NCBI RefSeq assembly: GCF_011065405.1
Contig: NZ_CP047056.1
Location: forward strand, 1,882,747-1,946,746
From: Succinivibrio dextrinosolvens
Lineage (GTDB): Bacteria > Pseudomonadota > Gammaproteobacteria > Enterobacterales > Succinivibrionaceae
Reading direction: 5' to 3'
DNA: 64,000 nucleotides
Every line of letters begins with the position of its first letter. Positions within the stretch are counted from its first letter, which is position 1. The position numbers and the translations under genes were made by a program. Shown in pieces: positions 4,571 through 40,182 of this stretch. The notes below the pieces were generated by a model. The model was not told where the DNA came from, ran no database searches, and was given only the letters and a program-made list of their open reading frames with translations.

Positions 4571-4582
4571 AATATGTGACGT

Positions 4583-5320: not shown

Positions 5321-5434
5321 AGAAAATCCTTATGTTTCATTAAGTAGACAACCTTTGTTTGTTACAAAATCAAGCACCTTATTCTGCCACATTGGAGGAA
5401 GTGAGAGCCTCAAAAAAAAGCTTCTCAAAAAAAA

Positions 5435-5980
5435 TTAGAATGGCAGATCGTCAGAATCATCATTTCCATCCACAACGATAGCAGGTTCAGGATTTGATGA
5501 TGGTTTCTGATTTATGAAAGATGAATCGTTCAGAAAAGATGGCTGTGCTGAAGGATTTCCGTATGGAGAATTATCAGGCTGAGCATGATTGTTTTTAAAA
5601 GAATTATTCTGCGCAGAGAAAGAATCACTCTCCGCGTGAGCCTTTGAAGAACCAAGCATCTGCAGCTCATCTGCGACAATCTCTGTTACACTTTTCTTAA
5701 CATTCTGCTTATCGGTAAATGATCTGGTACGAAGTTTTCCTTCCACGTATACCAGTGATCCCTTATGTAGCCATTTCTGAGCTATTTCTGCCAGTCTTCC
5801 CCATAAAACAACTCGATGCCATTCAGCTATCTCTGTCATCTGACCAGATTCTGCATTGCGACGAACCTCATTGGTAACCATTGAAACATTGGCAACTGCA
5901 GTACCTGAACCAGTTGTTCTAAATACAGGTTCATCTCCAAGATTACCAATCAGAATTACTTTATTAACTCCACGAGTCAT
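5435..5980 (-). CDS. ssb: Single-stranded DNA-binding protein
   Basis: This 181-residue SSB binds and protects single-stranded DNA in replication, recombination and repair. The N-terminal OB-fold (about residues 1-110) starts MTRGVNKVILIGNLGDEPV and contains WHRVVLWGRLAEIAQKWLHKG. A Gln/Asn/Ser/Pro-rich linker follows. The acidic tail ends DDSDDLPF, the classical SSB tip that recruits partner proteins. It lies divergent from uvrA, the arrangement found in enteric bacteria. Confidence 0.97.
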   Translation of the reverse strand: MTRGVNKVILIGNLGDEPVFRTTGSGTAVANVSMVTNEVRRNAESGQMTEIAEWHRVVLWGRLAEIAQKWLHKGSLVYVEGKLRTRSFTDKQNVKKSVTEIVADELQMLGSSKAHAESDSFSAQNNSFKNNHAQPDNSPYGNPSAQPSFLNDSSFINQKPSSNPEPAIVVDGNDDSDDLPF

Positions 5981-6255
5981 ATTAAATCCTTATAAATAGA
6001 CTGTCCTCGGAGAAGAAATCTCTTTGGTACAGCAAAATGATAATTATTAGCCTGTATATTATTGCATTGAAATTTTTGCCCTTGCATTTAAGCATATCCA
6101 AAAATACCCACTTACAATGCATGTCATTTAGCTTAAATCTTTTTTTTCTTTTTTTTCAATAAGATTAGATAAGAACTGTGCGGTAAATTTTTTTTTGATT
6201 TAAATATTTTCAGAACAAAGAAAGATAATCAAAAAAAAATCGGGCAGGAATAATG

Positions 6256-6390
6256 TTGAATCATAATGGGGGCGACTAAAAAGGTCATTTTTAGCAATTA
6301 CTAAGAAAATAATTTATTTAAATTTCAATATATTATTTTTAAAAATTTTGCTAAAAAATGACTTTTTAGTCAGCTCCAACATAATTCAAT
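6256..6390. repeat. MITE-like long imperfect inverted repeat between ssb and uvrA
   Basis: Two arms of about 45 bp, roughly 6256-6299 and 6344-6390, are imperfect reverse complements. Both contain GACTAAAAAG, TCATTTTT and TAGCAA blocks. The roughly 45-bp centre is almost pure A/T. The whole unit could fold into one long hairpin. It has no coding capacity. A MITE-type element or a strong transcription barrier are both possible. I could not identify a clean target duplication. Confidence 0.5.
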
Positions 6391-6546
6391 AAAGATTATT
6401 TTCAGTGCTCTCATAATATGACTTCAATGCACAATTATCTCTAATAGAAATTATTACTGATTAATTTTGTCGTCTTTTCTTTTATCCTCCATGAATTGTT
6501 TAAGGTAAAATTACAAAATCGACTTTAATAAAAATCAATTATACAA

Positions 6547-9390: not shown

Positions 9391-9398
9391 GAGACTAT

Positions 9399-9779
9399 AT
9401 GGCAAAACTTACAGAAAAAGAATATGAGGCAATCCAGTCTCTAAATGCAGAATACAGACAGGCAATGTTTATGAGAGTTGCCAAAGAAGAAAATGGCTTC
9501 TACATTCTTGCTGATAGCGAAGGCCCACTGATTCTTGAAGATACGGAGGAAGATGAGGATCATAACATTTTCAGTATTCTTCCTGTATGGTCACATGAGG
9601 AACTTGCTGCAGGCTATGCTGAGAAAAACAGCATGGAAGGCTTCAAGCCTCAGTTCGTAACCACTCAGGTATGGAACGAGAAATGGGTTCCAGCATTCCG
9701 TGAGCAGCAGAATGTACTGATTGGCTTCATGCCGATTTCAGATAAGGATTTCTCTGTAGAATCACCTATAGAATTCTAA
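9399..9779 (+). CDS. DUF2750-like small protein
   Basis: This 126-residue acidic protein starts 8 bp after the uvrA stop and is probably co-transcribed with it. The pattern of a YxxxxF region, GFYILADSEGPLILEDTEEDED, LPVWSHEELAAGYA and a C-terminal WVPAFREQQNVLIGFMP resembles the DUF2750 family, whose role is unknown. No signal peptide or membrane segment is seen. The family match is by eye only. Confidence 0.6.
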   Translation: MAKLTEKEYEAIQSLNAEYRQAMFMRVAKEENGFYILADSEGPLILEDTEEDEDHNIFSILPVWSHEELAAGYAEKNSMEGFKPQFVTTQVWNEKWVPAFREQQNVLIGFMPISDKDFSVESPIEF

Positions 9780-9814
9780 CGTCCTCACCAAAAGGCAAAG
9801 ACGTCAGATCAGGA

Positions 9815-10378
9815 TTACTTGATGAGGTCGTCTGGGATCTGAACCTTTGCCTTTGCAAGTTCAGTTTTAACGTATTTGAATAAAGCTCTGGAATTAGGCT
9901 TTGCGACTTCTTCAGACTCGATTTTTGCAGCTTCTTCCTTTGCTTTCTTAACCAGATTGCGAAGCTTGTTTCTATCAATCTCAGCAGCCAGATTACATAA
10001 AGCGTTAACCACTTCAATACCACCAGTTATAAGCTTTTCTCTTAATTTCTCAAGCTTAAGCGCATTAGGATCAACCTTAGAAGAGGCCCCCAGCATATTA
10101 ACCTGCTGCTCAAGATCTGAATCGTCATAGGCTCTCTGCAGTTTAGCCACATACTGAAGCTGTCTACGTCTTTCATCTGATTTGGGCTTGAGTTTTCGTG
10201 CAATAATCAGAGCATCTTTAACATCCTGAGGAATAACCAGGGATTTAAAGCTCTGATCACCGAGATCAGCTATCTTTTCAACAAGCTTTCTGATTGCCTG
10301 CGCTTCTCTTTTATGAGCGCTGCGGCTCTCCTCTTCAGGAGCGGAATCAAAGCCTTCAAAATGTTTCTGTTCTGCCAT
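9815..10378 (-). CDS. darP: Ribosome maturation factor DarP/YjgA
   Basis: This 187-residue, highly charged, mostly helical protein matches the YjgA/DUF615 family, recently named DarP, which assists late 50S subunit assembly in E. coli. Recognisable parts are SRSAHKREAQAIRKLVEKIADL near the N-terminus, LKPKSDERRRQLQYVAKLQR, and a C-terminal ALFKYVKTELAK. The length agrees with E. coli YjgA (183). It is the last gene of the minus-strand mla operon, 3 bp after mlaB. That coupling to lipid transport genes is not the usual context. Confidence 0.85.
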   Translation of the reverse strand: MAEQKHFEGFDSAPEEESRSAHKREAQAIRKLVEKIADLGDQSFKSLVIPQDVKDALIIARKLKPKSDERRRQLQYVAKLQRAYDDSDLEQQVNMLGASSKVDPNALKLEKLREKLITGGIEVVNALCNLAAEIDRNKLRNLVKKAKEEAAKIESEEVAKPNSRALFKYVKTELAKAKVQIPDDLIK

Positions 10379-10381
10379 AAG

Positions 10382-10630
10382 TTAAGTCTCGATTTCTAAA
10401 ATATCGTTAAGTCTATAAGTTGTGATCAAATTTACTGCAGTTTGAGAAACATTAAGCAATTTAATCTTTTTATTGTCTAAAGTCTTGGCCCACTGCACCA
10501 GGAAGGCAGCACCGGCAGCATCAATCTTTCTGATATTCTGCATATCAAAAACAGAATTTCTGAAGATTTCATCTCGCTGTTTCCACAGCTTTGGCACAGT
10601 AGTAAAGGTTAATTCTGTAAGATTATCCAT
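10382..10630 (-). CDS. mlaB: STAS-domain protein MlaB
   Basis: This 82-residue single STAS domain is the small cytoplasmic partner of the MlaF ATPase in the MlaFEDB phospholipid transporter. The core contains FDMQNIRKIDAAGAAFLVQW, where the conserved S/T of the STAS loop appears as an Ala-rich DAAGAA. It lies in the canonical position after mlaC, with a gap of 19 bp. Identification rests on size, the STAS pattern and operon position. Confidence 0.85.
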   Translation of the reverse strand: MDNLTELTFTTVPKLWKQRDEIFRNSVFDMQNIRKIDAAGAAFLVQWAKTLDNKKIKLLNVSQTAVNLITTYRLNDILEIET

Positions 10631-10649
10631 AACCCACTAGGAACTCTGC

Positions 10650-11264
10650 TTATTTGTTATCTGTTGAATTCAGTTTTGCAATAGCTGCATCTACGCCCTG
10701 ATTCTTAATGATTGGAGAAATCTCTGAAACCTTGGCATCCAGCATGGAGATGTTCTCGCCGATAAGATCAAAGGCCTTCCACTCACCGGTCTTTGAATTC
10801 TTGCGCATCTTCAGAACCAGCTCTAAATCCTTTTTACCGCTCTCTCTGATAATCATCTTTACAGAAACCAGAGACTCACTTTCAGGAACATTCTTTACCT
10901 CTGAAGGAACAATTTCCTGATTGGTGTACTTTGAAAGAACTGAAACAAAGCTCTGTTTCATGTATTTTTCAAATGCATTGGTAAACTTCTCTCTGTCTTC
11001 CTTGGAAAGAGTCTTAAGAGAGGTTCCCATTACCTTGTAGGCTGCATATTTGATGTCGATATAAGGGAACAGATTATCCTGAATGATCTTCTCGGCAACA
11101 GCATTGTCAGAAATCTTATCCTTGTTGGCTTTAATTTCCTTGACGGTATTTACAGCAACATCATTTGCCAGCTGATAAGGATTGCTCATGTCAAAATTTG
11201 CCTGAGCGGTGAAACTGAACATAAGAACGATAAAAGCTGATAAAAGCGCAATAATCTTTTTCAT
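10650..11264 (-). CDS. mlaC: Periplasmic phospholipid-binding protein MlaC
   Basis: This 204-residue protein has a signal peptide over residues 1-22 ending TAQA. It belongs to the MlaC (Tol-Tol-Ttg2D) family that shuttles phospholipids between the outer-membrane MlaA complex and the inner-membrane MlaFEDB complex. Family features are NLFPYIDIKYAAYKVMG, REKFTNAFEKYMKQSFVSVLSKYTNQ and a C-terminal GEWKAFDLIGENISML. It lies between mlaD and mlaB. Confidence 0.93.
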   Translation of the reverse strand: MKKIIALLSAFIVLMFSFTAQANFDMSNPYQLANDVAVNTVKEIKANKDKISDNAVAEKIIQDNLFPYIDIKYAAYKVMGTSLKTLSKEDREKFTNAFEKYMKQSFVSVLSKYTNQEIVPSEVKNVPESESLVSVKMIIRESGKKDLELVLKMRKNSKTGEWKAFDLIGENISMLDAKVSEISPIIKNQGVDAAIAKLNSTDNK

Positions 11265-11276
11265 AGTAAAACTACC

Positions 11277-11816
11277 CTATTCCTTAGTTGAATCAGTGTT
11301 TGAATCTGTGGTTGTCTCTGCAGCATTAGCCTTTGATTTTTCGGCATCCTGAGAGGAATTAAATAAAAACTTTGAGATCAGATCCTCAAGCACGACAGCT
11401 GAACCTGTATCGGTAATGTAATCACCATTCTTTAGATAGGTGGTTCCGAGATCCTCATCATAGAAGCCTGGAGTAATGGCAATATACTGCTCACCGATAA
11501 TACCTGAAGTCTGAATGCTAGCCTTTGATTCGCTGGAGATTTTATCAAATTTTTTCTCGATACCGATACTTACAACCGGAGTCAGACTCTCACCGTCAAG
11601 ATTGATGGCGGTAACTCTGCCGATGGCAACACCGCCGATTCTGACAGGAGCACGTAATCTTAATGAACCGATATTCTCAAACTTGGCATAGACTGTATAC
11701 AGTTCTGCTTTGGAATTTAATACCAGACCTGCAACCTGCAGAGCAAGAACACATGCAGCGATAATGCCTAACAGCATGAAAATGCCAACCATGATTTCTG
11801 TTTTTAAATATTTCAT
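11277..11816 (-). CDS. mlaD: MCE-domain lipid transport protein MlaD
   Basis: This 179-residue protein has one N-terminal membrane anchor (about residues 8-30) and one MCE domain (about 38-118) with the typical VYAKFENIGSLRLRAPVRIGG opening and GIIGEQYIAITPG closing motif. MlaD forms the periplasmic hexamer through which lipid passes. The C-terminal 30 residues are polar and rich in Ser, Thr and Asn. It sits between mlaE and mlaC. Confidence 0.95.
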   Translation of the reverse strand: MKYLKTEIMVGIFMLLGIIAACVLALQVAGLVLNSKAELYTVYAKFENIGSLRLRAPVRIGGVAIGRVTAINLDGESLTPVVSIGIEKKFDKISSESKASIQTSGIIGEQYIAITPGFYDEDLGTTYLKNGDYITDTGSAVVLEDLISKFLFNSSQDAEKSKANAAETTTDSNTDSTKE

Positions 11817-11829
11817 TACTAATTACCTA

Positions 11830-12603
11830 CTAGAACATTAAGGCTGTAAGAATAAAATCCAGACCTAAAACCGCTAATGATGACTGCACAACTGTAGCTG
11901 TGGTAGCTCTACTGATACCCTCAGAAGTTGGACGGCAGTCATAACCGTTGAAAAGAGCAATCCAGGTACAGACAAAACCAAAGACTGCAGCTTTGATAAT
12001 CATTGGAACCAGATCCTCTGTAAGATCGACGCTGGCCTGCATACCTGACCAGAAAATACCATCGTCAATACCAAGCCAGTCAACACCAACAAGCTTTCCG
12101 CCATATATACCGATAAGACAGAAAAGCAACGAGAGAATAGGCATACTGATAAGACCGGCCCAGAATCTTGGAGCAATGATTCGTCTGAGAGGATCAACCG
12201 CCATCATTTCCATGGCTGAAAGCTGCTCAGAAGCCTTTAACTGACCAATTTCAGCAGTCAGTGCAGAACCTGCTCTACCTGCGTACAGCAGTGCGGTAAC
12301 CACAGGGCCAAGCTCTCTGATGATAGACAGAGCCACGAGGGTTCCCAGAGAACCTGTAGCCATAAAATCCTTTAAGATATTAAAGCCCTGCAGACCTAAA
12401 ACCATTCCGATAAACAGTCCGGAAACCAGAATGATAATGATGGACTGAACACCAACAAAATAAATCTGGTTTATCAGTAAAGGAAATGATTTTTTTAGGT
12501 TAGGTATCGCTATGATTGAATGAAGAAAAATGATTGTAGATCTTCCTAAAGAGGAGATCTTTTTCAACGCATATCTTCCTAAAATACCAAATAATTCTAA
12601 CAT
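11830..12603 (-). CDS. mlaE: Phospholipid ABC transporter permease MlaE
   Basis: This 257-residue integral membrane protein has about five to six segments. Family signatures are [41 protein letters not shown] and [25 protein letters not shown]. It is the permease of the MlaFEDB complex. Its start codon overlaps the mlaF stop by one base, indicating translational coupling. Confidence 0.96.
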
Positions 12604-27027: not shown

Positions 27028-27141
27028 ACAGTCAAAAACATGGTGATTACCTTTATTTATCAGGTTTAAGCCTATTGTTTAATGAGTTATTTATTGTTGT
27101 ATTTTAATTTATTGTCCTTCACTGTTTACAGTTCAGTACTA

Positions 27142-28920
27142 CTAATGCTGATGACAATAAACACAGTCAGGCCCAGCAAAGACCATGGCATAGGCTTTGA
27201 TATTTCTGCCTTTAAAGTCTATTGCTGATTTATAGGCTGTAAGCTCTGCTGTGGCATCTTTGATGGCACTCTTTAAGGAGCTTTCACCAGTCTTATCTCT
27301 GGTTTCTGTCTTTTTAAGATATTTAAGCTCGATAATATAGATACACTCATCAGGCAAGCCCTTGTTTACGGTGATTACCAAATCCGGAAATCTTTCTCCT
27401 TCCTTTGGCACCTGCACAGACTGCTGCATCTTAACGTAGGTATTTACAATTGGCATGGTCTCTAATTTTGCATATAGCGCAAGATTCAGAGCCATTTCAT
27501 TCATGTGGCTTAATACCTGATTGTTCATAATCCTGCTTAAGAACTCGGTACAGGACTCTGCAAAGGAGGAGATATCGTCTTCACATGCTGTTAAGGCTGA
27601 CAGATTTAGCTTTGGAGCCTTAAACTCAGTATTGTCTTTAAAGCTGAAATCTATCGTACATCTTGCAAAGAGTTTAGACATAAAACGATTTGGAATTTTA
27701 AGCGCAAGTCCACTTGGAGATGATTTTTCTCTATCTATGGTCAGATAGCCCAGGTAGTAAAGCATGGATAAAAGCTGCTCAAGGTTGTACTCCCTTACCT
27801 GATTCAGATTTATGTTTTCTGAGAGCTTACTTACGTAGAACACTCCTCCCTGCAGATAGGTATCAATGATAAATTCAGCAGTTTCTTTCTGGGTTAGATT
27901 AAACAGCTGACTTAACCTACTGCCATCATGGTCAGAGGCAGGATCTAAGTACTCATCAGGATTTAGGAATATCCCCTTCTGACGAACCTTGGTCAGATAA
28001 TAAAGACACATAGAAGAATTATAGACCGTCTTATTAGCCTCACTTGAGAAACAGTATCCGTCGTAGACTGGTTTCATTCTCTCAATGATTTCTTTTGTTG
28101 TAACACCTAACTTTTCTACATCCACAAGCTTAGGAATTAGAATCTCCAGTTCATCCTCGGTAAAACCAGCGTACTCATTGAAACAGTCTAAAGATGTAAC
28201 ATTTAAGGCAATGTTAAATCCAGAGGTTAGTGAATCAAGAGAAACAGATGAGACTCCGGTAATAAAGGTCTTGGCTATAGCATCACTGGTCTGGGCTTTT
28301 ATCGACGCGTAAAAGTTTTTTAGAAGCCCACTCTTACCAGTGATTGAAAGAAATAATTCTAAATTTTTTGCAAGGATTTCATTTGCAAAATTGTCATACT
28401 CATCAATCATCACATAAAGTTTTTGAGTATTAAAATAATTTAAGTACGCATTTGTAAAGTAATTAAACAGGGTTACAGAGTCTTGTTTATTTAACTTGCT
28501 GTAATCAAATTTAAAATCTGGATATCTACGTTTAAAATTATCTATTCCAAGGATTACCACAGAAAAAAAACTGTCTACCAGAGTTTCGTAATTATCAGTA
28601 TTAACTCTCGAAAAATCAAAATCAATTACATGATAGCTGTTGTGAGAAGGAAGGTTCTCCTCATATATTTTTGTACCAGAAAACAACTCTTCATATCTGT
28701 CCTTGAAGGAAATGTCATAATAACATTTAAGCATACGGACAAATGTAGACTTACCAAAACGACGGGGACGCAGAAGTACAGGAAATTTACTTGTCCCCTT
28801 ATCGTCAAGGTATTTAATCATCAGGCTCTTATCAGCAAAGGCCAACTCGTCCTGCCGAAATAAATCAAAAGCTGACTGACCATAAGGATTATTTAGTAAT
28901 GTAACTGTACTCTCTGACAT
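27142..28920 (-). CDS. AAA-ATPase-like protein with C-terminal PD-(D/E)XK nuclease domain, copy 2
   Basis: This 592-residue paralogue has the same layout as the gene at 17874. Near the N-terminus are FADKSLMIKYLDD and Walker A PVLLRPRRFGKSTFVRML; Walker B-like LYVMIDEYDNFANE lies near residue 169. The C-terminal nuclease core is ERFPDLVITV then CIYIIELKYLKK, near residues 510-540. It ends DCVYCHQH. It is convergent with rapZ. The function is unknown; members are often lineage-expanded and may act in defence or mobile-DNA control, which is inference. Confidence 0.85.
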   Translation of the reverse strand: MSESTVTLLNNPYGQSAFDLFRQDELAFADKSLMIKYLDDKGTSKFPVLLRPRRFGKSTFVRMLKCYYDISFKDRYEELFSGTKIYEENLPSHNSYHVIDFDFSRVNTDNYETLVDSFFSVVILGIDNFKRRYPDFKFDYSKLNKQDSVTLFNYFTNAYLNYFNTQKLYVMIDEYDNFANEILAKNLELFLSITGKSGLLKNFYASIKAQTSDAIAKTFITGVSSVSLDSLTSGFNIALNVTSLDCFNEYAGFTEDELEILIPKLVDVEKLGVTTKEIIERMKPVYDGYCFSSEANKTVYNSSMCLYYLTKVRQKGIFLNPDEYLDPASDHDGSRLSQLFNLTQKETAEFIIDTYLQGGVFYVSKLSENINLNQVREYNLEQLLSMLYYLGYLTIDREKSSPSGLALKIPNRFMSKLFARCTIDFSFKDNTEFKAPKLNLSALTACEDDISSFAESCTEFLSRIMNNQVLSHMNEMALNLALYAKLETMPIVNTYVKMQQSVQVPKEGERFPDLVITVNKGLPDECIYIIELKYLKKTETRDKTGESSLKSAIKDATAELTAYKSAIDFKGRNIKAYAMVFAGPDCVYCHQH

Positions 28921-29575
28921 AAAGCTGTTTCCTTAACTACATTCTGTCTTCATTATAGCAGAACAGCAAAAACATGCTCTCAGCTAAGAACATTAGGAAC
29001 ATTTGAAGAAAAGTTTTAAAAAGCACAGTATCGTGATATTAGATATAGGTAGGTTACTTGGTGATAAGATGAAAGATCATCTTCTTGCTCTTCTTTAGAG
29101 ATGAATTTTAAATCTGTCTAACGCGCTCAAGCCTCACCTTCTATAAATTACCTCATTAAACTTCTTTTATTCACGCTTATAGCTGTAACTAAGCATCAGG
29201 TCTTTACAGATGTATAACAAAAATCAGAAAAGATGAATAAAGTTACAGAAAATGTGCTGATGACGGACTATACCAATACCTATAATGTGTTCACATCCAA
29301 CTGTGGCCAACATATAAAGATAATATAGAAATACAGTAGGTTATTTTGATTTGTTAAAATTTGATCTGCAAACATTATAGTTTTTATGTTAAGCAAAAAA
29401 TTTAACTATAATATGCATATGAAACACAGCATTTAGCGTTATTTGTGTTCAGTTTAACTTCAGATGATGTGTTCCTAAATATGGAATGCTCCTACATTAT
29501 TATTTAGATAGTTTTTTTAAATCCTATAACTAAAAAGATTACTTAGAGTCAAAAGTTTTAAAGACAGGATAAACC
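28921..29575. other. Non-coding region at the left edge of the accessory island
   Basis: No intact gene is seen in this 655-bp stretch. It contains the decayed rpoH 3' fragment (29052-29130) listed separately. The remainder is AT-rich with no clear structure. Confidence 0.5.
29052..29130 (-). pseudogene. rpoH: Decayed copy of the rpoH 3' end
   Basis: Bases 29052-29130 align with the last part of rpoH at about 40177-40276. GGTTACTTGGTGATAAG is identical, then 21 bp are missing. Then come ATGAARGATCAT, TCTTCTTTAGAGATGA, AATCTGTCT and ACGCGCTCAA with a few mismatches. Orientation is the same as rpoH. It marks the far boundary of the 11-kb island whose near boundary is the intact rpoH 3' end. 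Confidence 0.75.
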
Positions 29576-30115
29576 ATGAAAAGACAAGTTGCTTTAGATA
29601 TAGAAACGACAGGCCGCTCTGAAGATGGCTCTTATGTAGGAGAGCACCGTATTGTAGAAATTGGTTGCGTTGAAATTGTTGAAAGAAAAATTACAGGACG
29701 ATCTCTCCATTATTACGTAAATCCTGAACGACCTGTTGACGAAGAAGCCTACCAAGTTCACGGAATACCCGATACATTTTTATATGACAAACCAAAATTT
29801 AAGGAAATAGCTAATGAATTATTAGATTTTATTAGAGATTCTGAACTTCTGATTCATATTCCTGAATTCGATGTTGGATTTCTTGACAAAGAATGGTTAA
29901 TTTTAGGATTAAAAGAAAGAACGTCAGATATAGCTAAGATTGTGAATGTTAATTCCCTTGCAATGAAAATACTTAAAGGTCAAAAAGGAGATTTAGATAA
30001 TCTATGTAATTTATACGACATAGATCTAAATTCACGTGCATTCAATGGAGCTTTAACAGATGCAGAAATTCTAGCAGAAGTATATCTAGCTATGACTGAT
30101 GAGAAGAAAAATTGA
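29576..30115 (+). CDS. DnaQ-like exonuclease domain protein, catalytic His missing
   Basis: This 179-residue protein is closely similar to the N-terminal exonuclease domain of the DNA polymerase III epsilon subunit. Motif I is ALDIETTGR, motif II is LIHIPEFDVGFLD (DnaQ usually has IHNAxFD), and motif III is FNGALTDAEILAEVYLAMT. In E. coli DnaQ the last motif reads LHGALLDAQILAEVYLAMT, so the catalytic His is Asn here while the acidic residues remain. The C-terminal alpha-subunit-binding tail is absent. It lies just inside the island boundary. It is probably a paralogue, not the main proofreading subunit. Confidence 0.8.
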   Translation: MKRQVALDIETTGRSEDGSYVGEHRIVEIGCVEIVERKITGRSLHYYVNPERPVDEEAYQVHGIPDTFLYDKPKFKEIANELLDFIRDSELLIHIPEFDVGFLDKEWLILGLKERTSDIAKIVNVNSLAMKILKGQKGDLDNLCNLYDIDLNSRAFNGALTDAEILAEVYLAMTDEKKN

Positions 30116-30506
30116 TAGTGTCTAAAAACACTCACTATTCGATATTTGATTCTTTATATTAAGAAATTCATAAAGACTTCGTTTCAAGAATTATCAGTAA
30201 AATCTTTATAAGAAATCTTCTAAGATTATACAGTTTTCCTAATAAAAATTAGCAAAAGCCCATAAGCTAAGGAAGATTATTGTAAACTTTTCTAATTCTC
30301 TTTAATTGAAGAAATATATACTCCCTTACACCTAAAACCATCAATCCTTATAAATATAATAAGAACAACAGAATACCTTGTTTTAATATTCAAAGCTTCT
30401 TCATTTTTGTGTGTTTTTATTCGCGTTGGCATTCAAAAATCTAGAACACCTGATTCCTATAATTTCCAAACCAGAATAATAAAAACTTTTAAAGAAGAGT
30501 TATTTT
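30116..30506. other. Non-coding region after DnaQ-like gene
   Basis: This strongly AT-rich stretch of about 390 bp shows no gene or RNA signature I can support. Confidence 0.4.
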
Positions 30507-31038
30507 ATGGTTAAAGAAATATCATCGAAGTATAGGAACTAATCAAACAACATTAACACAAAAGAAAAATTAGATGCTGATAAGAAAGAAAAGAAGTATC
30601 CCAGACAAAAGGTTGTTGCTCGTGACATCGAACATTTAAAAAAACTAATAAAAAAAAACCATAAAAGAAGATGGTAACAAATGCGATCTTAATTACATAG
30701 ATGTGTCACATATAGAAGACATGAGTTATTTGTTTGCTGGATCTAAATTTTGTGGAGACATAAGCAAGTGGAATGTATCTTCAGTAACAAACATGAGTCA
30801 TATGTTTTACAACAAAATAAACAAAAATAATGTTGAAGATGAAATATTTAATGGAGATCTAAGTAAATGGGATGTATCGAATGTTACTAATATGAACTTA
30901 ATGTTTTATAAGTCCAAGTTCAATGGAGATATCAGCCAGTGGGATGTTTCCAACGTCATTTTTATGCAATCCATGTTTGATGGCTCTGCATTTAATGGCG
31001 ATTTAAGTAAATGGTACAAAGTCTCTCCCAAAAAATAA
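30507..31038 (+). pseudogene. BspA-type repeat protein, broken 5' part
   Basis: From the ATG at 30507 the frame meets a TAA at 30540, then continues as KVVARDIEHLKKLIKK. A run of nine A's near 30650 shifts the frame to TIKEDGNKCDLNYID, the head of a repeat module. An open frame from 30703 then encodes four to five 24-residue units of the type FNGDLSKWDVSNVTNMNLMF. The header agrees with those at 31075 and about 32030, showing that the frames belong together. With a stop and a frameshift this looks inactive. Confidence 0.65.
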
Positions 31039-31074
31039 CTTGGAGCCTTCTGAATAAAAAGAGTCTGTTAGTTT

Positions 31075-32370
31075 ATGTCCAGAAAAATAATAATAGCCAG
31101 AAATCTTGCATATCTAAAAAGGTTAATCCGAAGATTTATAAAGATAAAAGGAAACACTTGCGACCTGAACTTTATTGATGTGTCCAAAATAACTGACATG
31201 AACAGCTTATTTTATATGTCTGATTTTAATGGTGACATAAGCAGATGGGATGTCTCAAACGTCCAGACTATGACGGGAATGTTTGCCTACTCAAGATTCA
31301 ATAATAATATCAGTAATTGGAATGTTTCTAGTGTTACTGAAATGAGCAGAATGTTTGAGAAATCAGAATTCAATCAGGACATCAGCAGTTGGAATGTTTC
31401 AAATGTGAAGAATATGACCAGAATGTTTGCTGCTTCAAAATTTAACCAGGATATCGGTCGGTGGAATGTATCTAATGTCCACAATATGCACATGATGTTT
31501 TTAGCAGCTGACTTTAACGGAGATATAAGATCTTGGAATACATCAAAAGTTGTAAACCTAAATAGAATGTTTTTTAAAGCAAAATTTAACGGTGATATCA
31601 GTGACTGGGATGTTTCCAACGTAAAAGATATGCGCGGCTTATTTGCCTATTCTTCATTTACTGGAGAAATAAAAGACTGGAACGTATCAAAAGTAAAATT
31701 CATGGGGAAAATGTTCTTCAAATCGGCTTTTAACGCTGATATAAGCAAATGGGATGTCAGCAATGTAAAAGATTTTAAAAAGATGTTCTCCTTTTCAAAA
31801 TTTGCCGGAGATATTAGTAAATGGAATGTAGCTAACGCTACAGATATGAGTTGTATGTTTCAAGGAACAACAGACTTTAAATGTGACATCAGTAAATGGC
31901 AAATTCCATTAGATGTAAAAACAAAAAAGTTATTTAACAAATCGTCTTTAACATGGGACATTACAAATTTTGATATATGGAAGAAAAGAAATACCCCTCC
32001 CAATATTGATGAAGAAGGCCTTTATATTGCGGAAGACAAGGACCATTTAAAAGCACTTATAAAGAAAGCAATAAAAAAACACGGAACAAATTGTGATCTG
32101 AATTTTATAAATGTGTCAAAAGTTTCTGATATGAGTGGATTATTCAAGTTTTCTGAATTTAATGGAGATATAAGCAAATGGGATGTTTCTAGGGTAAAGA
32201 ATATGAGAGAAATGTTTTACTGCTCAAAATTTAATGGAGATATCTCTAATTGGGATGTTTCTCAAGTTACAGATATGAGTTGGATGTTCACTTTTTCTCA
32301 GTTTCAAAAGGATTTGACGAAGTGGAATACATCATCCGTAACAAAATCAACTTCAATGTTTGTAATGTAA
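31075..32370 (+). CDS. BspA-like leucine-rich repeat (DUF285) protein
   Basis: This 431-residue protein consists of two modules. Each has a header of about 35 residues (AYLKRLIRRFIKIKG...CDLNFIDVSKITDMNSLF and DHLKALIKKAIKKHG...CDLNFINVSKVSDMSGLF) followed by 24-residue units FNGDISxWDVSNVxxMxxMF. Module one has about ten units, module two about three. BspA/DUF285 repeats usually occur on bacterial surface or lipoproteins. Here there is no signal peptide or lipobox, so location is unclear. It may be the 3' part of a larger gene that includes 30507-31038. Confidence 0.7.
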   Translation: MSRKIIIARNLAYLKRLIRRFIKIKGNTCDLNFIDVSKITDMNSLFYMSDFNGDISRWDVSNVQTMTGMFAYSRFNNNISNWNVSSVTEMSRMFEKSEFNQDISSWNVSNVKNMTRMFAASKFNQDIGRWNVSNVHNMHMMFLAADFNGDIRSWNTSKVVNLNRMFFKAKFNGDISDWDVSNVKDMRGLFAYSSFTGEIKDWNVSKVKFMGKMFFKSAFNADISKWDVSNVKDFKKMFSFSKFAGDISKWNVANATDMSCMFQGTTDFKCDISKWQIPLDVKTKKLFNKSSLTWDITNFDIWKKRNTPPNIDEEGLYIAEDKDHLKALIKKAIKKHGTNCDLNFINVSKVSDMSGLFKFSEFNGDISKWDVSRVKNMREMFYCSKFNGDISNWDVSQVTDMSWMFTFSQFQKDLTKWNTSSVTKSTSMFVM

Positions 32371-32394
32371 TTTAAGACATAAAATCGATTGGCA

Positions 32395-33414
32395 TTAACT
32401 GTTTCTTCTTGATAATTCTGACTCAACATCAATCAATGATATTGGCTTTTCATTTATTAGCGACATAGATTTTAATGTCTTGATGAAGCCCTCTATCTGA
32501 CGGACATCAGATTTAAAATGCCTTGCAAGACAAGCAACTATATCTGAGGAAAGCTGCAGCTCTAATTCTTTGCTTTTCTCCGTGATAATCTTCTTTTTAG
32601 TCTTAAAATCTGAAGGATAAAGCTTCACATATTTTATGGATTGCAAAAAAAGACGAACACTGTCATCTGTAACAAGATTTAATGGTTCTGAGGTTGCCGA
32701 TACAAGAAGCTGCATCTGGTATTGAGAAAGAACATCCATAATCATTCCCCAAAAGGCCTGTTGCGTTTTTTCTCCATTACCAAGTAAATGAATATCATCA
32801 ATTATCAGAACATCTTTTTTGGTAATCGTATTGTGACTAAAAAGCGTGTCGTTATCTTTATGCTCCGAGATTGACGCAATGTATCTTCGAATAAAATTAT
32901 CAGCCCTCAGAAAGCTTATTCTTGAATCAGGATTATTCGCATTAATTCTATTGGCAATCGCCCATAAAAGATGAGTTTTACCTACACCAGAATCACCATA
33001 AACATAAAATGGATTATGGTCATTATCTCCAGGATTTTCAGATACCTTTTTTGCAAGAATAACTGCCTCCTGATTTTTTTTGCTTGTAATGAAATTTTCA
33101 AACGTCTTATTTAGATAAACGCTGTGAGGCACAACAACATTTGAATTTATCTCATTAAAAGCAGAGAAAAGAATAATCTCTACTCTAACACCTGGATCAT
33201 CGAGATTTTTTAATAATTCCTCTATAAGTTTTTGGCCAAACGATTCTAATGAACTTTTTATGTTTTCATTACTGCAGATAATGTATAGAGTTTGCTCTAA
33301 TATTCTGAGTTCGCATTGAGAAGAAAGACACTGAAACAAAGCTCTTTCCAGAGCATTATCTGAAGCATTACAAATCTTATTTACTGTCCTATTCCAAAGA
33401 TTGTATAACTCCAT
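32395..33414 (-). CDS. DnaA-like AAA+ protein lacking the DNA-binding domain
   Basis: This 339-residue protein resembles chromosomal initiator DnaA but ends after domain III. Residues 1-80 look like domain I (MELYNLWNRTVNKI...LYIICSN). A short linker leads to VYLNKTFENFITSKKNQEAV and NPFYVYGDSGVGKTHLLWAI (Walker A). Walker B is VLIIDDIHLL, and sensor II is SDVRQIEGFIKTLK. The protein stops at ESELSRRNS, where DnaA would enter domain IV with its helix-turn-helix. The DRLKSRF arginine-finger segment reads DSVRLFLQSIK, so that Arg appears lost. It lacks an Hda-type clamp-binding N-terminus. It is divergent from the WYL gene. Confidence 0.82.
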   Translation of the reverse strand: MELYNLWNRTVNKICNASDNALERALFQCLSSQCELRILEQTLYIICSNENIKSSLESFGQKLIEELLKNLDDPGVRVEIILFSAFNEINSNVVVPHSVYLNKTFENFITSKKNQEAVILAKKVSENPGDNDHNPFYVYGDSGVGKTHLLWAIANRINANNPDSRISFLRADNFIRRYIASISEHKDNDTLFSHNTITKKDVLIIDDIHLLGNGEKTQQAFWGMIMDVLSQYQMQLLVSATSEPLNLVTDDSVRLFLQSIKYVKLYPSDFKTKKKIITEKSKELELQLSSDIVACLARHFKSDVRQIEGFIKTLKSMSLINEKPISLIDVESELSRRNS

Positions 33415-33667
33415 CTATCTACTCCCTTAACTCTGCAGGAAAACAATCAAATCATGATTGAAGTATATCTTTGAAGTATTCCTAAATTTAGAACACACAA
33501 GAACATAAAAAAGAATTATTTGAGAACAATTCCAAAAAAGAGAACATCTATCAACTATAAATAGAGATAAGAAAGAGTTACGGATAGATTTATGGCAACT
33601 AAACAAGATCCCGATTCAAAGCGAGTTGATAAAGCGCTTAAGCTTTATCGATTACTTCTTATCAACG

Positions 33668-33676
33668 ATAGAAAAT
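33668..33676 (+). repeat. Left target-site duplication of IS4-like element
   Basis: ATAGAAAAT immediately precedes the left terminal repeat. The identical 9 bp follows the right terminal repeat at 35381-35389. Confidence 0.85.
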
Positions 33677-35380
33677 CATACCCAGGACCTTAAGCTATTT
33701 TACAAGAGGCCCCTAGTTGGTTAGCGATCTGCCAAAATAATAATGGCAGATCTTTTAATAAAATTCGATCTCGCTGCGATGGTGTCGTTCTTGTACAGAA
33801 CTCTGCGATGTTAGCGAGAAGTTCTTTAAAAATTCGATATATGGTCGATCTGCTTTTGTACGCAAGTGCATTGACGAAATCGGCAAAGAGATCGTTGTAC
33901 TTATGCAGTTTCAGCAGTGATAAGTTTGTAATCTCATGCTTTAGAACCGCCTTAGTTCCACAGAAGGTCTTGATAATTGAGGCCAGAAGCGAAAGCAGGA
34001 TAAAGATAAGAATTACATTCTTCTTACTGGAGTTTATGCTCTTCAGATTGTTGCCACTCTTGTTTGCCTTGTTGAAAAGCTCGATGTTCCAGCGGACTCT
34101 GTAAAGCAGATAAAGCTGTTTTGAACCAAGCTTATCTCTTCTGACATTGGTTCTTAGAATAGAGATTTTATCCTCATCCTTTGCTGCAGGATTATATCTG
34201 TGAATGATTCTAAGAGCATTGCCTTTGGTGGTCCTGATGGTTACATCGCAATTTAGCTTTTTAGGTAAATCCTTAAGCTTTTTACCTGTGTATTCTTTGA
34301 GGATAGAACCATCCTCGGTAAAGGCTTCTACGATTGTTCCATTGGTGTTGACCTTACCTCTAATCAGAAACTGAATCCCTTCATCTGAAAGAGACTTTTC
34401 AAGTTCTTCATCAATATAGCCTCTATCAGCAATGAGCAGACAGTCTTTAAGATATTCTTTGAGAACACGGTCTCTTTCAGAGCCGACAGCCTCGGAGATA
34501 TCAATGTAGATAAAGGTCTGCTGAATTAGAGAATATGCAACATGAAGCTTTGCACCTGGTCTTGCAGATTCACCATCTAATCTGTCTCTGCCTTTTCCCT
34601 GACAGCCGAAGTTAGCTGCACAGGAGTACTGAAGGTCAATTTCTGTACCGTCGATGAGAATGATATCCTTAACGCCTAGAGCCTTAAGTATTGTAGTCAA
34701 ATCTTCTGAAAGATATTTCTTAATCTTCTTTGCAAGCTTATGAGAGAACAGAGATATAGACTGTTCAACAATGGTCTTGACGACTGCAAGTGCTTCATCA
34801 GAATCAAGCTGTTTATGAATGCACTTATGACTCATTCTGAGAGCTTCTGCCTGATTACGGTTGTAGTTCATGTGAAAGTCATTAAGAGTAAACTCTGAGC
34901 TTCTAGTTGATGAACACAGTTTGGATAAACTGCCGAGCAGATAACTGGATAGAGAGAATTTACGTTTCCTAATACAGGCTTTGCATTCAAAAGCAATATC
35001 TCGGATATTGTCTTTGGAAAGAACTGAAAGAAGGTTTTTAGCAGATGGAGATAAATTGGTTGACAGATTTGATAGAAATAGGGATAATGGCTCCATGGGT
35101 TCTCCTTTAATTAGTTGATTTTTAAGCACATTCATTATACTAAAGGTGAACCCTTAAGTCCATTAATACCAATCAAATCAAGTAATTATTTCCCCAATTT
35201 CAAAAAATCCCAAAATTAGGACAAAACAATATCGTTTTGTTCAAATACACCTGTTGTACAATACATTAACAGATTGATTTATATATCGAATTTTTAAAGA
35301 ACTTTACCTACAGGTTGACTGTTAGGTACATTATGATTTAACCCATTGATCTTAATTAATTTTTAAAGATCCTGGGTATG
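33677..35380 (-). mobile_element. IS4-family insertion sequence, 1704 bp, complete
   Basis: Terminal inverted repeats are CATACCCAGGACCTT on the left and, reading inward from the right, CATACCCAGGATCTT: 14 of 15 identical. The 9-bp direct repeat ATAGAAAAT flanks both ends. One transposase gene fills the element on the minus strand. The clean ends and intact transposase suggest a recent insertion. Confidence 0.88.
33690..35096 (-). CDS. IS4-family DDE transposase
   Basis: This protein of about 468 residues has the DDE triad in IILIDGTEIDL, CLLIADRGYIDEE and the YREK-like YRVRWNIELFNKANKSG, as expected for IS4-type transposases. I chose the ATG at 35096, which has AAAGGAG at good spacing; a start 39 bases upstream lacks this. 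The gene is intact and occupies nearly all of the insertion sequence. Confidence 0.88.
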   Translation of the reverse strand: MEPLSLFLSNLSTNLSPSAKNLLSVLSKDNIRDIAFECKACIRKRKFSLSSYLLGSLSKLCSSTRSSEFTLNDFHMNYNRNQAEALRMSHKCIHKQLDSDEALAVVKTIVEQSISLFSHKLAKKIKKYLSEDLTTILKALGVKDIILIDGTEIDLQYSCAANFGCQGKGRDRLDGESARPGAKLHVAYSLIQQTFIYIDISEAVGSERDRVLKEYLKDCLLIADRGYIDEELEKSLSDEGIQFLIRGKVNTNGTIVEAFTEDGSILKEYTGKKLKDLPKKLNCDVTIRTTKGNALRIIHRYNPAAKDEDKISILRTNVRRDKLGSKQLYLLYRVRWNIELFNKANKSGNNLKSINSSKKNVILIFILLSLLASIIKTFCGTKAVLKHEITNLSLLKLHKYNDLFADFVNALAYKSRSTIYRIFKELLANIAEFCTRTTPSQRDRILLKDLPLLFWQIANQLGASCKIA

Positions 35381-35389
35381 ATAGAAAAT
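35381..35389 (+). repeat. Right target-site duplication of IS4-like element
   Basis: ATAGAAAAT directly follows the right terminal repeat and duplicates 33668-33676. Confidence 0.85.
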
Positions 35390-36772
35390 ATTCAACAACT
35401 GAACTGACAAAGATTTTAAACTGTTCTAAACAGTCCATTAGGGCAGTCATTGATGATCTTAATGCCAATCCTGAAATAAATATCTGCGAAGAATTTAATG
35501 AGCATACCAGAGTCAAAAAATACTTTATAGAGCACAGTAAACATGGAATGAATGAGCCAATAGCTTTAGAAGGTTACCGCCAGATGGAGCTATGCAGAGA
35601 TCTTATAGGAAAACTTCTACCTGAAGACGATCTGCTTGAACTAAATAAGGCTTTGTTTAATGCTGCTAACTATCTTCCTAGAAAAGCCAGATGCAATTTC
35701 AAAACATTCTCCATTGCAACAGGATTTTCAAAAGGTCATATCAATTACAGCAATTCAAAAGAAATTCTTCATAAACTCTATGAATGCATTACACAAAAGA
35801 ATTGTTGTTCACTCTCGTATCAGAAAGAAGTAAATGGCACTATAAAAGAGTATTACTTTGCTCCAAAAAGAATTATCTGCCTACGAGATACTCTGTATAT
35901 AAAAGGATGGATTGTTGATGATCAACATGATGAAGTTATATGCAAACATCCGAATCCAACCAATTTCTCTGTACACAGAATTCAGGATATTCATGTTTTA
36001 GAAGACAAGTCGTCAGAAGCACTTTCTGATGTGATTGGTAATCACGAGATGTTTGGTCTCATATCAGAAAATGAACCTTTTAAGGTGATTCTAAGATTCA
36101 CAAATCCTCATGCCATTACTTATGTGGCAGATAGAATATGGAGTAGCGACCAGAAACTTGAATTTAATGAGGATGGCTCATTAACTCTTTCTTTCACCAC
36201 TGACAGTTATTACGAAACATTTACCTTTGCTCTTTCATTCGGTAGAGGAGTAGAAGTCATTTCTCCAGAAGAATTAAGAGAAGAAGTTAAGGCTGAAATA
36301 AAAGAAATGAAAAAGATTTATTGAGGAGTGTTTTATGTGTGATTTACCAAATGACTTAAAGCCCATTTATGAATCATGGCTTTGTCGATGGCATAAGCAA
36401 GATGATATCCAAGATCATAACAAATATAAAAAAAAAGACAATGAATGGGGGTACAGTGTGAACACCAACCCTTTTATCGCAATTGAGACTCACATAAATG
36501 AAGACACAATAACTGATTTGCTCGCGCATATACTTCAGACAGACGAAGAAATAAAAATGGAATTCATTAATTTTCTTTTAAATAAAGCAAATAAAGAGAA
36601 AATTATTAAAGAGGAGGTAAAAAAAACAGAAATAGAAACCCAGTATTATATACAAAATCAAGGTAAAAAAAGTCGTTTAGATTTATTTATAAAAATACCA
36701 AACAAATACTACATTATTATAGAGAACAAAATCTTTGATGCCCCAGAACAGCCAAAACAAATGGAACGATAT

Positions 36773-36783
36773 ATTGGTGGCAT
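36773..36783 (+). repeat. Left target-site duplication of ISAs1-like element
   Basis: ATTGGTGGCAT precedes the left terminal repeat; the same 11 bp occur at 38612-38622. Confidence 0.8.
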
Positions 36784-36946
36784 ATGGCGCCAACACGATC
36801 AGATCATTATCTCAAATCTGTTGAAGCCTGATTTTCAACCAAATCGGCAGGTAATTGTGCCAATTTACAAATTTACAAATCTTTGTCAAAAGCCCTGTTT
36901 TATAGTCAGGCACGACAAAGTGCCAAGGTTATTCACTAACTTTGGC

Positions 36947-36980
36947 TTTGTTCTTTCAAAATATGATTCAAAGGATTAAA
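36947..36980 (+). repeat. Inner inverted repeat, left arm
   Basis: TTTGTTCTTTCAAAATATGA and the following bases match, inverted, the arm at 38486-38518 (TTTGTTCTTTCAAAATGTGA on the minus strand). Arms closely flank the transposase gene. No target duplication adjoins them. Confidence 0.65.
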
Positions 36981-36981
36981 T

Positions 36982-38425
36982 CTAAGTTCGTTTAGCCTTG
37001 ATTTTATGTCTTCCTCTAGCAAACTTACCAAGTGGCGTATCATCATTGATACTGGCCTCAAAACCGGTTTCTTTTAGATTGTCAGGAATGTCATTGCCTG
37101 TAGGCTCAGCCTCTTTGTAGACAATGCCGATGAGACCTTCATCGTTCTCAAGCTCTGACATATCCCTGGTAAAGAATGCTTTCATGAACTTGAATCCATA
37201 ATCATCTTTCTGTGCAAGCATTCTCAGTGTCTTGAAAGACCATGGTTTATTGTAGTGGTAAGGAATATTGTCCCTGATGTAGCTAAGAATATTGAATGCC
37301 ATTTTGGTGTAGATTGTGCTGTTGTTTATATAGTCTCTATTCCTTAATGGTAGCTGATCCTGCTCAAAGACCACATCCAGTACCCAGTGCATTGATTCAA
37401 CCTTCCATCTCTGGAGAATGATTTTAAGCATGGTATCGGCAAATTCCTTATCCAGTCCATCTATAACCAGAGAGCTGATATAGAATCTGTCTTCATTCTC
37501 AACTATGGTATTAGAGTTTTGTAAATTCTTGTGGTTCTTACTCTTATCACAGAATTGACATCAGGCCACTTTTGCGCATTTCCTTAGAGAGGGCGTACTT
37601 GGCATCAAGAATTGCAATCTCTTTGCCTTCCTTTCTGCCATGAGCCTCAAAGACCATGGTAGACGAAACAGATTCCCCTGGATATTTATCCATATCGTAG
37701 AATTGAAATCCGGTTTTTACGTCATCTATCAGATTACCCTGATTGTCTTTCAGACAAACCAGAAAGTCGGCATTGGCATCAACCACAGCCTTTACTGTAT
37801 ATGGTCTGGTATTTATGGCATCCCAGGTGAGGATTGCATTTCTCAGATTCAGAGCTTTAATCATATCCAGAATTACTTCTGCCTCATGATTTTTCTTGTC
37901 TACAGTTCTCTGGGAGAGAGTAATTCCGTAGGTTGAGGAATGCAGACTAACGATGTCGATGCCAGAATCTTTTCGTGCATCATTACCGTTCTTGCTTGAT
38001 CTTGTTGCATTGATATTCTGTCCATCTGCTGCTATTACCTCTCTTTCTTTTAAGGGTACTGAACCCAATGGTTTCTCTGAGAGTTCTCTATGATTGGCAA
38101 AGTAGTTTGTTAGGAAGTTTACCGTTTCATTAGTATTAAGAATGCTTACTACTCTTCTTAAGGTCTGCTCTGATGGAACGTCATCATCCAAACCATAGAA
38201 ACTTTCTTTAAGCCAAGGCAGCTTTTCTAACCAAAACAGTCTCTGTTCACTTGCGTCATTACAGTTACATATTCTGGCTAAAATAACTATAGAGCATATG
38301 ACACTCAGAGGATAGATAATGCGATCCTGTGCTCGAGGATCAGTTAAATTCAGCTCAACAATTCTCTGAAGAAAGGAAGCATCGTTAATAGTATTGTCAA
38401 AAGCATCCTGGTCAGTTGAAGTCAT
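36982..38425 (-). pseudogene. ISAs1-family transposase, frameshifted
   Basis: The 5' part (38425-37547) encodes an H-repeat/ISAs1-type transposase with EREVIAADGQNINATRSSK, ILTWDAINTRPYTVKAV and FLVCLKDNQGNL. At a run of four A's (37570-37573) the frame is lost by one base. The other frame continues KWPDVNSVIRVRTTRIYK and RFYISSLVIDGLDKEFAD to IILQRWKVESMHWVLDVVF, which carries the conserved HW region, and runs to 36982. The full product would be about 481 residues, long for the family. Confidence 0.85.
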
Positions 38426-38485
38426 TTTTATTCTTTCGTATCCGTTACAATTACAGGGAAAGGATATTAATTATTTAACATTAAG

Positions 38486-38518
38486 TTTGATCCGTGAATC
38501 ACATTTTGAAAGAACAAA
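38486..38518 (-). repeat. Inner inverted repeat, right arm
   Basis: This is the partner of the arm at 36947-36980; about 29 of 33 positions match when inverted, allowing one gap. Confidence 0.65.
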
Positions 38519-38611
38519 ATCAGTAGGTTAACTAACTGATTAATTTACATTAATTTTTGTAAATTACAAATTTGTAACTATGTGAGCGCCATCATATGGT
38601 GTTGACGCCAT

Positions 38612-38622
38612 ATTGGTGGCAT
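38612..38622 (+). repeat. Right target-site duplication of ISAs1-like element
   Basis: ATTGGTGGCAT directly follows the right terminal repeat and duplicates 36773-36783. Confidence 0.8.
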
Positions 38623-39600
38623 TCAGTCTTTATATGAAGCTCAGGATAAAGATATAATCGCTTTCTATGCCACCGTAGAAGGTACAGAAGAATGTAGGAC
38701 TGCAGGAAAATACAAAAATAGAATCTCAAAATTAACCTTTTACAAGGAAGATGATCCAACAAGTATATATAGTTTTCTAAATAACTACAGAGAAAAAAAC
38801 ACACTTGTTAAGTTTTTTTTAGAATATCTTAAATATACATTTTTCGACTCTAACTCAAAAGTTTTTTTGAAGATATTATTGAGACACATAAAGGAAATTT
38901 GGAAAAACTACAACTAGATGATGTGTTTATTAAAGGATCACAACGCATTCAAAAATCTGTAAATGAATACGACTCTCCAAAAGAATTCTTTTATCAATTA
39001 CTAAAAGTTCATATTTTGAATCAATATATTATTAGTTGGTTCAATAATTCTGATAAAGACATGATTAATTACAGTTATGTTTTTAGTGGCATTAAATTAA
39101 AAAAAGAAATTGAAAATTATTCTGTATGTTTTGAAACCAAGTATTGGTATAACAGCTACTATATAGTAATAACCGTATGTTCTAAGAAAAGTATTCCTAA
39201 AAAAGCTTTAAAAGCTTTATTTGATGAAGTAAGCGATCATGTAGAAACAAAACAAAACAAGACCAATGGTGAATATGAATATTCCCTCTGGTTATGGATT
39301 CTTGATTATGATGTTTATGAAAAATATATAGATAAGATCGATGACAAAATAATCAAAAATAACTGGAAGACATACAGTAAATACATTGAACTCATATGTA
39401 AAAAATGTATGAAAAAAATTTTTGAGAATATATGTAAAAGAATAAAAAAAATAAATAAAGAACAACAAAAACAAGATGTTAATAAGCCTAACGACATAGA
39501 CAAAAAAACAAAACAAGATGGTGATATGCCTTACTACATATACAAAAACCTTCCTTATTAGAGGGCAAAATAATCTCAATCGATGAAATAAAAACGTATA

Positions 39601-39683
39601 TTTAGAGAATAGTGAAATACAGAATTCATTCTCTAAAACTATAAGGGAATGATTGTAACTTGGTATCTTTTGCCTAAGTTACA
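39601..39683. other. Two consecutive hairpins after the nuclease gene
   Basis: TTTAGAGAAT/ATTCTCTAAA (39601-39610 and 39628-39637) and TGTAACTT/AAGTTACA (39654-39661 and 39676-39683) are perfect inverted repeats. They may terminate the nuclease transcript. No strong T-run follows. Confidence 0.4.
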
Positions 39684-39735
39684 TTTCAGGAAGCGCCGGC
39701 TAAGGTCCTCTTAGTCTCCAAAACACCGGCTAAGT

Positions 39736-39899
39736 GCAAATATTTCAAGAGTAATGTACTTCTTTTTTATTGGTGATAAAGCGGTACTAACCAATGGCTT
39801 AGTGAAAAAAAAACACAAAAAACTCCAATAAAAGAAATAGAAAAAGCACTGAAATACAGACAAGACTATATACAAAGATATGGTGATACAAATGGATGA
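39736..39899 (+). pseudogene. HigB/Gp49-like toxin remnant
   Basis: The frame gives ANISRVMYFFFIGDKAVLTN then GLVKK. At a run of nine A's (39805-39813) it shifts to TQKTPIKEIEKALKYRQDYI and a stop at 39899. This is the C-terminal half of a phage-derived Gp49-like/HigB toxin, typically ...RVLYFF...FVKKTQKTP. The N-terminal half, upstream of a stop near 39710, is missing. Its stop overlaps the antitoxin start. Confidence 0.7.
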
Positions 39900-40164
39900 T
39901 TTTGATAACTATTTGGTAGAGCAGCAAAAAAATCCAAAATTCAAAAAAGAGTATGATGCTTTGGAGCCTGATTATCAGATGATCTCTTCTCTGATTGCTG
40001 CAAGAGCTGAAAAAAAACTTACTCAGCAGGATCTCTCAAAAATTACAGGGATTGCTCAGGCAGATTTATCAAAAATCGAGAATGGAAATGCAAATCCTAC
40101 TTTAAAAACCTTAAAAAAAATTGCTGAAGGATTAGGAAAAAGACTACAGATATCATTTGTCTGA
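39892..40164 (+). CDS. XRE-family antitoxin (HigA-like)
   Basis: This protein of about 90 residues has a helix-turn-helix over roughly residues 35-88: KKLTQQDLSKITGIAQADLS and NANPTLKTLKKIAEGLGKRL. I chose the ATG at 39892, which overlaps the toxin stop; an in-frame ATG lies 12 bases upstream. It would have neutralised the adjacent HigB-type toxin and repressed the operon. The toxin is broken, so this is an orphan antitoxin. It is convergent with rpoH, 18 bp away. Confidence 0.85.
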   Translation: MDDFDNYLVEQQKNPKFKKEYDALEPDYQMISSLIAARAEKKLTQQDLSKITGIAQADLSKIENGNANPTLKTLKKIAEGLGKRLQISFV

Positions 40165-40182
40165 GCTTTTTTTTCAGGAAGG

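Follow-up and report, generated by a model that had tools for sequence, protein, structure and literature searches.

In the 64,000-nucleotide stretch of Succinivibrio dextrinosolvens DNA analyzed here (the window), an intact open reading frame on the minus strand (positions 32395 to 33414) starts with ATG, has the Shine-Dalgarno sequence AAGGGAG 7 bases upstream, and encodes a DnaA-like protein of 339 amino acids (aa). Residues 103 to 249 match the Bac_DnaA domain (PF00308; E = 3e-34). The DnaA model TIGR00362 aligns residues 14 to 331 with model positions 4 to 332 of 437, up to the border of domain IV and not into it, at 168.7 bits, which does not reach the equivalog cutoff of 343.9 bits. DnaA chains are the closest solved structures by sequence, and the 40% identity to a DnaA of the genus over 231 columns means that the resemblance is not due to chance. 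The protein comprises domain I (residues ~1 to 88; minus strand, 33151 to 33414, from a family-specific profile), a very short linker (residues 89 to 99) that leaves almost nothing of domain II, and an AAA+ domain III (residues 100 to 331). The genome (G000) is a single 3.47-Mb contig in which the true dnaA lies 42 kb from this gene, beyond the window, so that the DnaA-like gene stands outside the dnaA-dnaN-recF-gyrB operon; mnmG-rsmG-parA-parB is found at 58.5 to 63.6 kb within the window. Neighboring genes without a profile match carry names that we presume from their translations.

Domain I was detected with an HMM built on 20 DnaA sequences from this family (44 bits, E = 7e-12; the best of 5,000 shuffles reached 13.3 bits), and Pfam DnaA_N was absent from the 23 Pfam matches of the protein. 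At positions that we take to correspond to Trp6, Asn44, and Phe46 in E. coli DnaA numbering, the first two residues are retained and the third is Asn51. Phe46 is given as the contact with DnaB and DiaA in the accessible part of PMC5742627, and the roles of the aligned domain I residues are taken from excerpts of that article and of PMC5448010. A single-sequence model of domain I has the order helix-helix-strand-strand-helix-strand, with low confidence; domain I modeled alone had a pLDDT of 54 and returned DnaA domain I at rank 11 (E = 0.14). The AAA+ part of the fold model was firmer (pLDDT blocks mostly 70 to 91, three at 53 to 66), and Foldseek with the full-length model placed DnaA chains at ranks 1 to 11 and Hda at ranks 12 to 15. 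At the other end, the frame stops at the domain III/IV boundary, and tblastn of the window with domain IV revealed no remnant of it near the gene. Just 24 bp beyond the end of the gene, a convergent DUF285 frame terminates; it is one of two neighboring DUF285-like repeat frames (30703 to 32370, plus strand) that converge on the DnaA-like gene and possibly represent one split gene.

We then analyzed the AAA+ domain against the DnaAs of the family. The alignment located Walker A (residues 139 to 149, YGDSGVGKTHL; 32968 to 33000), Walker B (residues 204 to 208, IIDDI; 32791 to 32805), and sensor 2 (residues 304 to 311, VRQIEGFI; 32482 to 32505), all on the minus strand, with the P-loop GDSGVGKTH, the IDD of Walker B, and Arg305 of sensor 2 retained. 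The box VII/Arg-finger segment (residues 248 to 265, VTDDSVRLFLQSIKYVKL; 32620 to 32673, minus strand) is changed at both of its arginines, the Arg finger being replaced by Phe (R256->F) and the box VII Arg by Ser (R252->S), and the sensor-1 Asp has become Thr (D241->T). Of the 74 AAA+ columns that are invariant in 21 family DnaAs, 43 are kept and 31 lost. In the Walker A region, 10 of 11 such residues are retained (one-sided P = 0.016), whereas 7 of 9 are gone from the box VII stretch (residues 247 to 266; one-sided P = 0.025), both regions having been picked post hoc, after the data were seen. We infer that the protein binds ATP; tight binding is not assured because the sensor-1 Asp is lost. 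Judged by its sequence, it is a deeply diverged DnaA paralogue with ATP-site residues retained. The original prediction had described domains I and III without a DNA-binding domain, a preserved DnaA-type P-loop, Walker B, and sensor II, and an altered arginine-finger segment, and this description agrees with the TIGR00362 span, the domain I HMM, the tblastn result, and the residues listed above.

A DnaA-type AAA+ domain without domain IV is also the layout of Hda (TIGR03420), and the Hda model gave the protein 85.9 bits. An Hda-like regulator, stimulating the hydrolysis of DnaA-bound ATP, is nonetheless very improbable. The score falls short of the TIGR03420 cutoff of 194.8 bits, the protein has a domain I and no Arg finger, and no N-terminal clamp-binding motif was found in it by a regular expression for an assumed form of the motif. 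Score, clamp motif, and Arg finger together ruled out an identity with Hda, and the separation from Hda made at the outset stands. Moreover, the same genome contains a separate Hda (C1, 2463267 to 2463944) that has an Arg finger and QQALDF near its N terminus and scores 190.6 bits, just under the same cutoff. A PADLOC match to DolB (18.5 bits) was taken for generic AAA+ similarity.

The leader of the gene (33415 to 33560, minus strand) contains, in addition to the Shine-Dalgarno sequence, four direct AGAACA repeats (read on the plus strand at 33490, 33500, 33523, and 33541). This stretch 5' of the gene (33490 to 33546) is the densest AGAACA cluster of the whole window and is a possible operator. 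A simple scan of the leader found no promoter-like site on the strand of the gene, which is presumably expressed. Autoregulation via DnaA boxes was discarded, as the exact sequence TTATNCACA occurs once in the window, against 3.6 expected, and lies away from the gene, at 24820.

The gene is carried by a variable insert of 13.1 kb between rapZ and rpoH (27028 to 40182; inner part, ~29069 to 40182). We compared the spacing of the two genes in the 12 genomes of the genus that have both on one contig and found it unlike that of G000 in all 11 others. The genes are at most 150 bp apart in six of the 12 (G001, G003, G010, G012, G013, and G015) and 0.8 kb apart in G009; they are 2 to 5 kb apart, with another gene orientation, in G002, G006, and G014; and G004 has a 10.6-kb insert. 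The inserts of G000 and G004 have similar ends (79% over 217 bp at window position 29070 and 88% over 289 bp at 39696 to 39982), with no further match between them at 1e-3, and both hold a copy of the rpoH 3' end at the left, which is decayed in G000 (~29069 to 29130). They look like one kind of integrating element whose cargo has been exchanged. The junction of rapZ and rpoH is a hotspot for insertion, with different cargo at 29069 to 40182 of the window and at ~1531 to 12130 of locus L084. Neither rapZ nor rpoH was found in the sister genome G011, which may therefore still carry the insert. Along with the DnaA-like gene, the insert contains two transposase genes, a WYL/WCX regulator, a PD-(D/E)XK gene, an exonuclease gene, and the DUF285 repeats. 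At 36982 to 38425 (minus strand), two in-line frames, the bigger one with transposase (DDE) domains, belong to an element that looks broken.

The insert, with its transposases and the ends that it shares with that of G004, could suit a helicase loader or a replication factor of a mobile element, which would deliver the replicative helicase to a different origin or fork, like DnaC or DnaI, and would not act on DnaA. The general layout of those loaders, an N-terminal protein-contact domain followed by a DnaA-type AAA+ domain without a DNA-binding domain (as described in the part of PMC3401641 available to us), is that of the 339-aa protein, DciA was found in none of four genomes of the genus, and the DnaI model gave 43.7 bits. 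However, scores were far under the cutoffs (22.0 versus 357 bits for NF005931 and 43.7 versus 228 bits for NF006505), the N-terminal domain is that of DnaA, and the box VII Arg that DnaC keeps, according to the same portion of PMC3401641, is lost. Ten proteins of the insert were scanned against Pfam without a match to an integrase or conjugation family, and a weakly DnaC-like gene is present elsewhere. We regard a loader as decidedly unlikely.

Searches with the DnaA-like query covered 56 genomes of the family, 297 of the order, and 377 of the class, in overlapping sets, and yielded matches in 47 (1e-8), 292 (1e-10), and 362 (1e-12) of them, respectively; the order and class searches scored up to a set number of candidates in each genome. 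Extra dnaA-like genes are rare in these genomes. Among the matches listed, only G000 (three) and G011 (two) had more than one in the family and order searches, that is, 2 of the 297 order genomes at E <= 1e-10, and only G000 (two) did so among the 377 class genomes at 1e-12. The family search also gave weak second matches in G021 (contig C44), to a weakly DnaC-like gene, and in G031 (contig C129), to a DnaA/Hda-like frame described below. Strong-scoring frames shorter than 400 aa were, among the matches listed, one of 365 aa on contig C95 of G011, where domain IV follows in frame after one stop, and five with one end close to a contig start, in G113, G164, and G175 (359 aa), in G424 (347 aa), and in G531 (386 aa), each being the sole listed match of its genome. 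Thus, no second genome with an intact copy lacking domain IV appeared among the matches listed for the family, order, and class, and a conserved family of such proteins was rejected on the same searches. A homologue search for a conserved truncation had been named as a check of the original prediction; with a single genome as carrier among the matches listed, the claim of a conserved regulator was not borne out. A scan of genome contigs for related loci retrieved 14 at 25 to 35% identity, of which 13 have long DnaA frames and the other (L025) is Hda-like (171.5 bits). A phage origin was dismissed, the matches comprising 37 phage records, of which the three inspected (H5, H12, and H13) proved to be normal dnaA genes that include domain IV, as was a plasmid origin, with 54 plasmid records matched, all below 60% identity. 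The scan of viral contigs gave no relatives.

The alternative named at the outset, a copy that is simply truncated, held in part: no second genome with an intact copy lacking domain IV was listed, but the copy is deeply diverged, with saturated synonymous sites and ATP-site residues kept. In particular, a simple truncation of the resident dnaA was excluded by the identity of 39% over the AAA+ domain and by the synonymous saturation. Compared with the resident dnaA, 12 of 38 fourfold sites are identical (0.31 expected from composition), and 34% of 231 codons differ at position 2. On a fixed tree, the terminal branch of the gene measures 0.74, 0.46, and 1.86 at codon positions 1, 2, and 3. Saturated synonymous sites, 43 of 74 invariant residues, and a frame kept whole indicate that, over most of its past, the gene was under selection for its protein product. 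This purifying selection was looser than on DnaA itself and, as far as one sequence can tell, may have ended recently. The G+C content at third positions is 0.28; of eight flanking core genes compared, seven have a higher value. In trees, the protein sits on a very long branch within the main DnaA group of the family (support, 98/93). One tree places it in the genus (83/99) and another outside, and a forced within-genus placement is not rejected (P = 0.62); the placement that holds is that within the main family group.

A second DnaA paralogue is found beside trpG in two genomes, and it is broken in both (L058, 3548 to 4309, at ~3232.5 kb of C1 in G000; L055, 1134 to 2477, in G011). In G000, only the 3' part is left, cut at Walker B and beside a TnpB-like gene; in G011, an in-frame stop occurs at the domain III/IV boundary and domain IV follows in frame. 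Its Arg finger is changed from Arg to Glu, and the sensor-1 Asp is also lost. Between the two genomes, the copies differ by 11, 8, and 10 changes at codon positions 1, 2, and 3 of 142 codons, compared with 6, 2, and 18 changes over 505 codons for the dnaA genes of the same pair, and this even spread over codon positions shows that the trpG-side copy now evolves as a pseudogene. It clusters with DnaAs from the species group to which it belongs (support, 99/96), and an AU test does not reject its sisterhood with the 339-aa paralogue (P = 0.41). The two share 4 of the 50 novelties of the trpG-side copy, compared with 4 to 9 for eight control DnaAs, and the lack of an excess gives no hint of a common origin. 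The Arg finger may have been lost convergently in the two paralogues, or its loss may be shared.

The fate of the trpG-side copy, cut or stopped and changing evenly over codon positions, bears on the main rival to the role that we propose below, namely, that the 339-aa protein is a paralogue losing its function. It would be an old dnaA duplicate, functionless or nearly so, from which a rearrangement at the insert removed domain IV and which now drifts, its frame open by chance. The very long branch and the 31 of 74 invariant residues lost are consistent with decay, as are the location in a variable insert with two transposase genes and the absence of a copy from every other searched genome among the matches listed. 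On the other hand, drift fits poorly with 339 codons free of stops and frameshifts despite saturated synonymous divergence, with a codon position 2 much slower than position 3, and with the retention of the ATP-site residues. We consider decay somewhat unlikely, and a serious contender.

We tentatively propose that this fast-evolving extra DnaA paralogue, encoded in a variable insert of the chromosome, is a DnaA-binding filament cap or brake, a possibility that we hold to be short of probable. In DnaA filaments, protomers join head to tail, each placing its box VII Arg in the ATP site of its neighbor, and changing this Arg blocks assembly, as set out in the sections of PMC3401641 and PMC5742627 at hand. 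The 339-aa protein would still be able to bind ATP and to offer an ATP site, through which it could attach to the R-end (Arg-finger face) of a DnaA protomer. It could not accept the next protomer, since its own Arg finger and box VII Arg are missing, and would not be held at DnaA boxes, since domain IV is missing. An ATP site without the box VII Arg would make it a terminal partner on the R-end alone, for which a filament cap is the simplest reading. By capping or poisoning DnaA filaments, the protein would lower or delay initiation, and its domain I may also compete for the partners of DnaA. The brake or decoy role suggested originally is compatible with this anatomy, deduced as it is from the sequence, while contact with DnaA and an inhibitory outcome are what the model would predict. 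The retained ATP-site residues beside a degraded box VII, the intact frame with its Shine-Dalgarno sequence, the past purifying selection, the domain I, and the presence of a separate Hda, which already occupies that slot, speak for a cap or brake. The finding of the 339-aa protein in a single genome among those searched, the loss of the sensor-1 Asp, the change of Phe46 to Asn51, which weakens the domain I half of the model, the lack of a promoter-like site in the simple scan of the leader, and the decay of the trpG-side copy speak against it.

The same anatomy would serve a positive cofactor, joining the R-end of the filament with a further domain I, or a store that keeps DnaA in inactive hetero-oligomers until it is needed, and the sequence is silent on the sign of the effect. 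A filament end produced by the loss of the Arg finger and domain IV would more easily be inhibitory, and we view a positive or storage role as quite improbable. Broadening the cap proposal, island-borne DnaA paralogues without an Arg finger might be a recurrent device of this lineage that caps the R-end via the ATP site and controls host replication. We think this unlikely; were it so, the trpG-side paralogue would be an independent or a sister case.

Restraint of DnaA by protein contact, the outcome proposed here, is known for SirA, Soj/ParA, and the prophage protein YfdR, which, in contrast to the 339-aa protein, are not described as DnaA paralogues in the available portions of PMC5448010, PMC5742627, PMC4285326, and PMC4776307. 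The nearest published case in the texts at our disposal comes from the Rickettsiales, in which plasmids and RAGE elements have reused DnaA_N: the Rickettsia DALP and Orientia RAGE genes likewise have DnaA domain I reused on mobile DNA (excerpts of PMC4316617 and PMC10732058). However, DALP has a C-terminal DnaA_N and is otherwise variable (same excerpt of PMC4316617), whereas here domain I is N terminal and fused to a full AAA+ domain. In the accessible portion of the open-licence PMC literature, we found no intact DnaA paralogue with domains I and III and no Arg finger, and we met no antagonist of DnaA that mimics the initiator and caps the R-end. Should the protein bind DnaA, it would represent a naturally occurring dominant-negative initiator in which ATP-site docking is split from Arg-finger docking. 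It would then offer a direct test of the head-to-tail model of the DnaA filament and exemplify an influence of accessory DNA on initiation in the host. Should it be drifting, it illustrates the extent to which a second dnaA can degenerate with its frame still open.

Two further observations concern related or neighboring genes. In the window, the ParB-like protein encoded at 58531 to 60288 (minus strand) carries at its C terminus a long, acidic, and highly repetitive tail (EEVAADEVAPEEAVT-type repeats). A DnaA/Hda-like frame from a different genus of the family (G031, contig C129; L103, 808 to 1494) is cut by the contig end, possesses an Arg finger, and scores 70 bits to DnaA and 61 bits to Hda.
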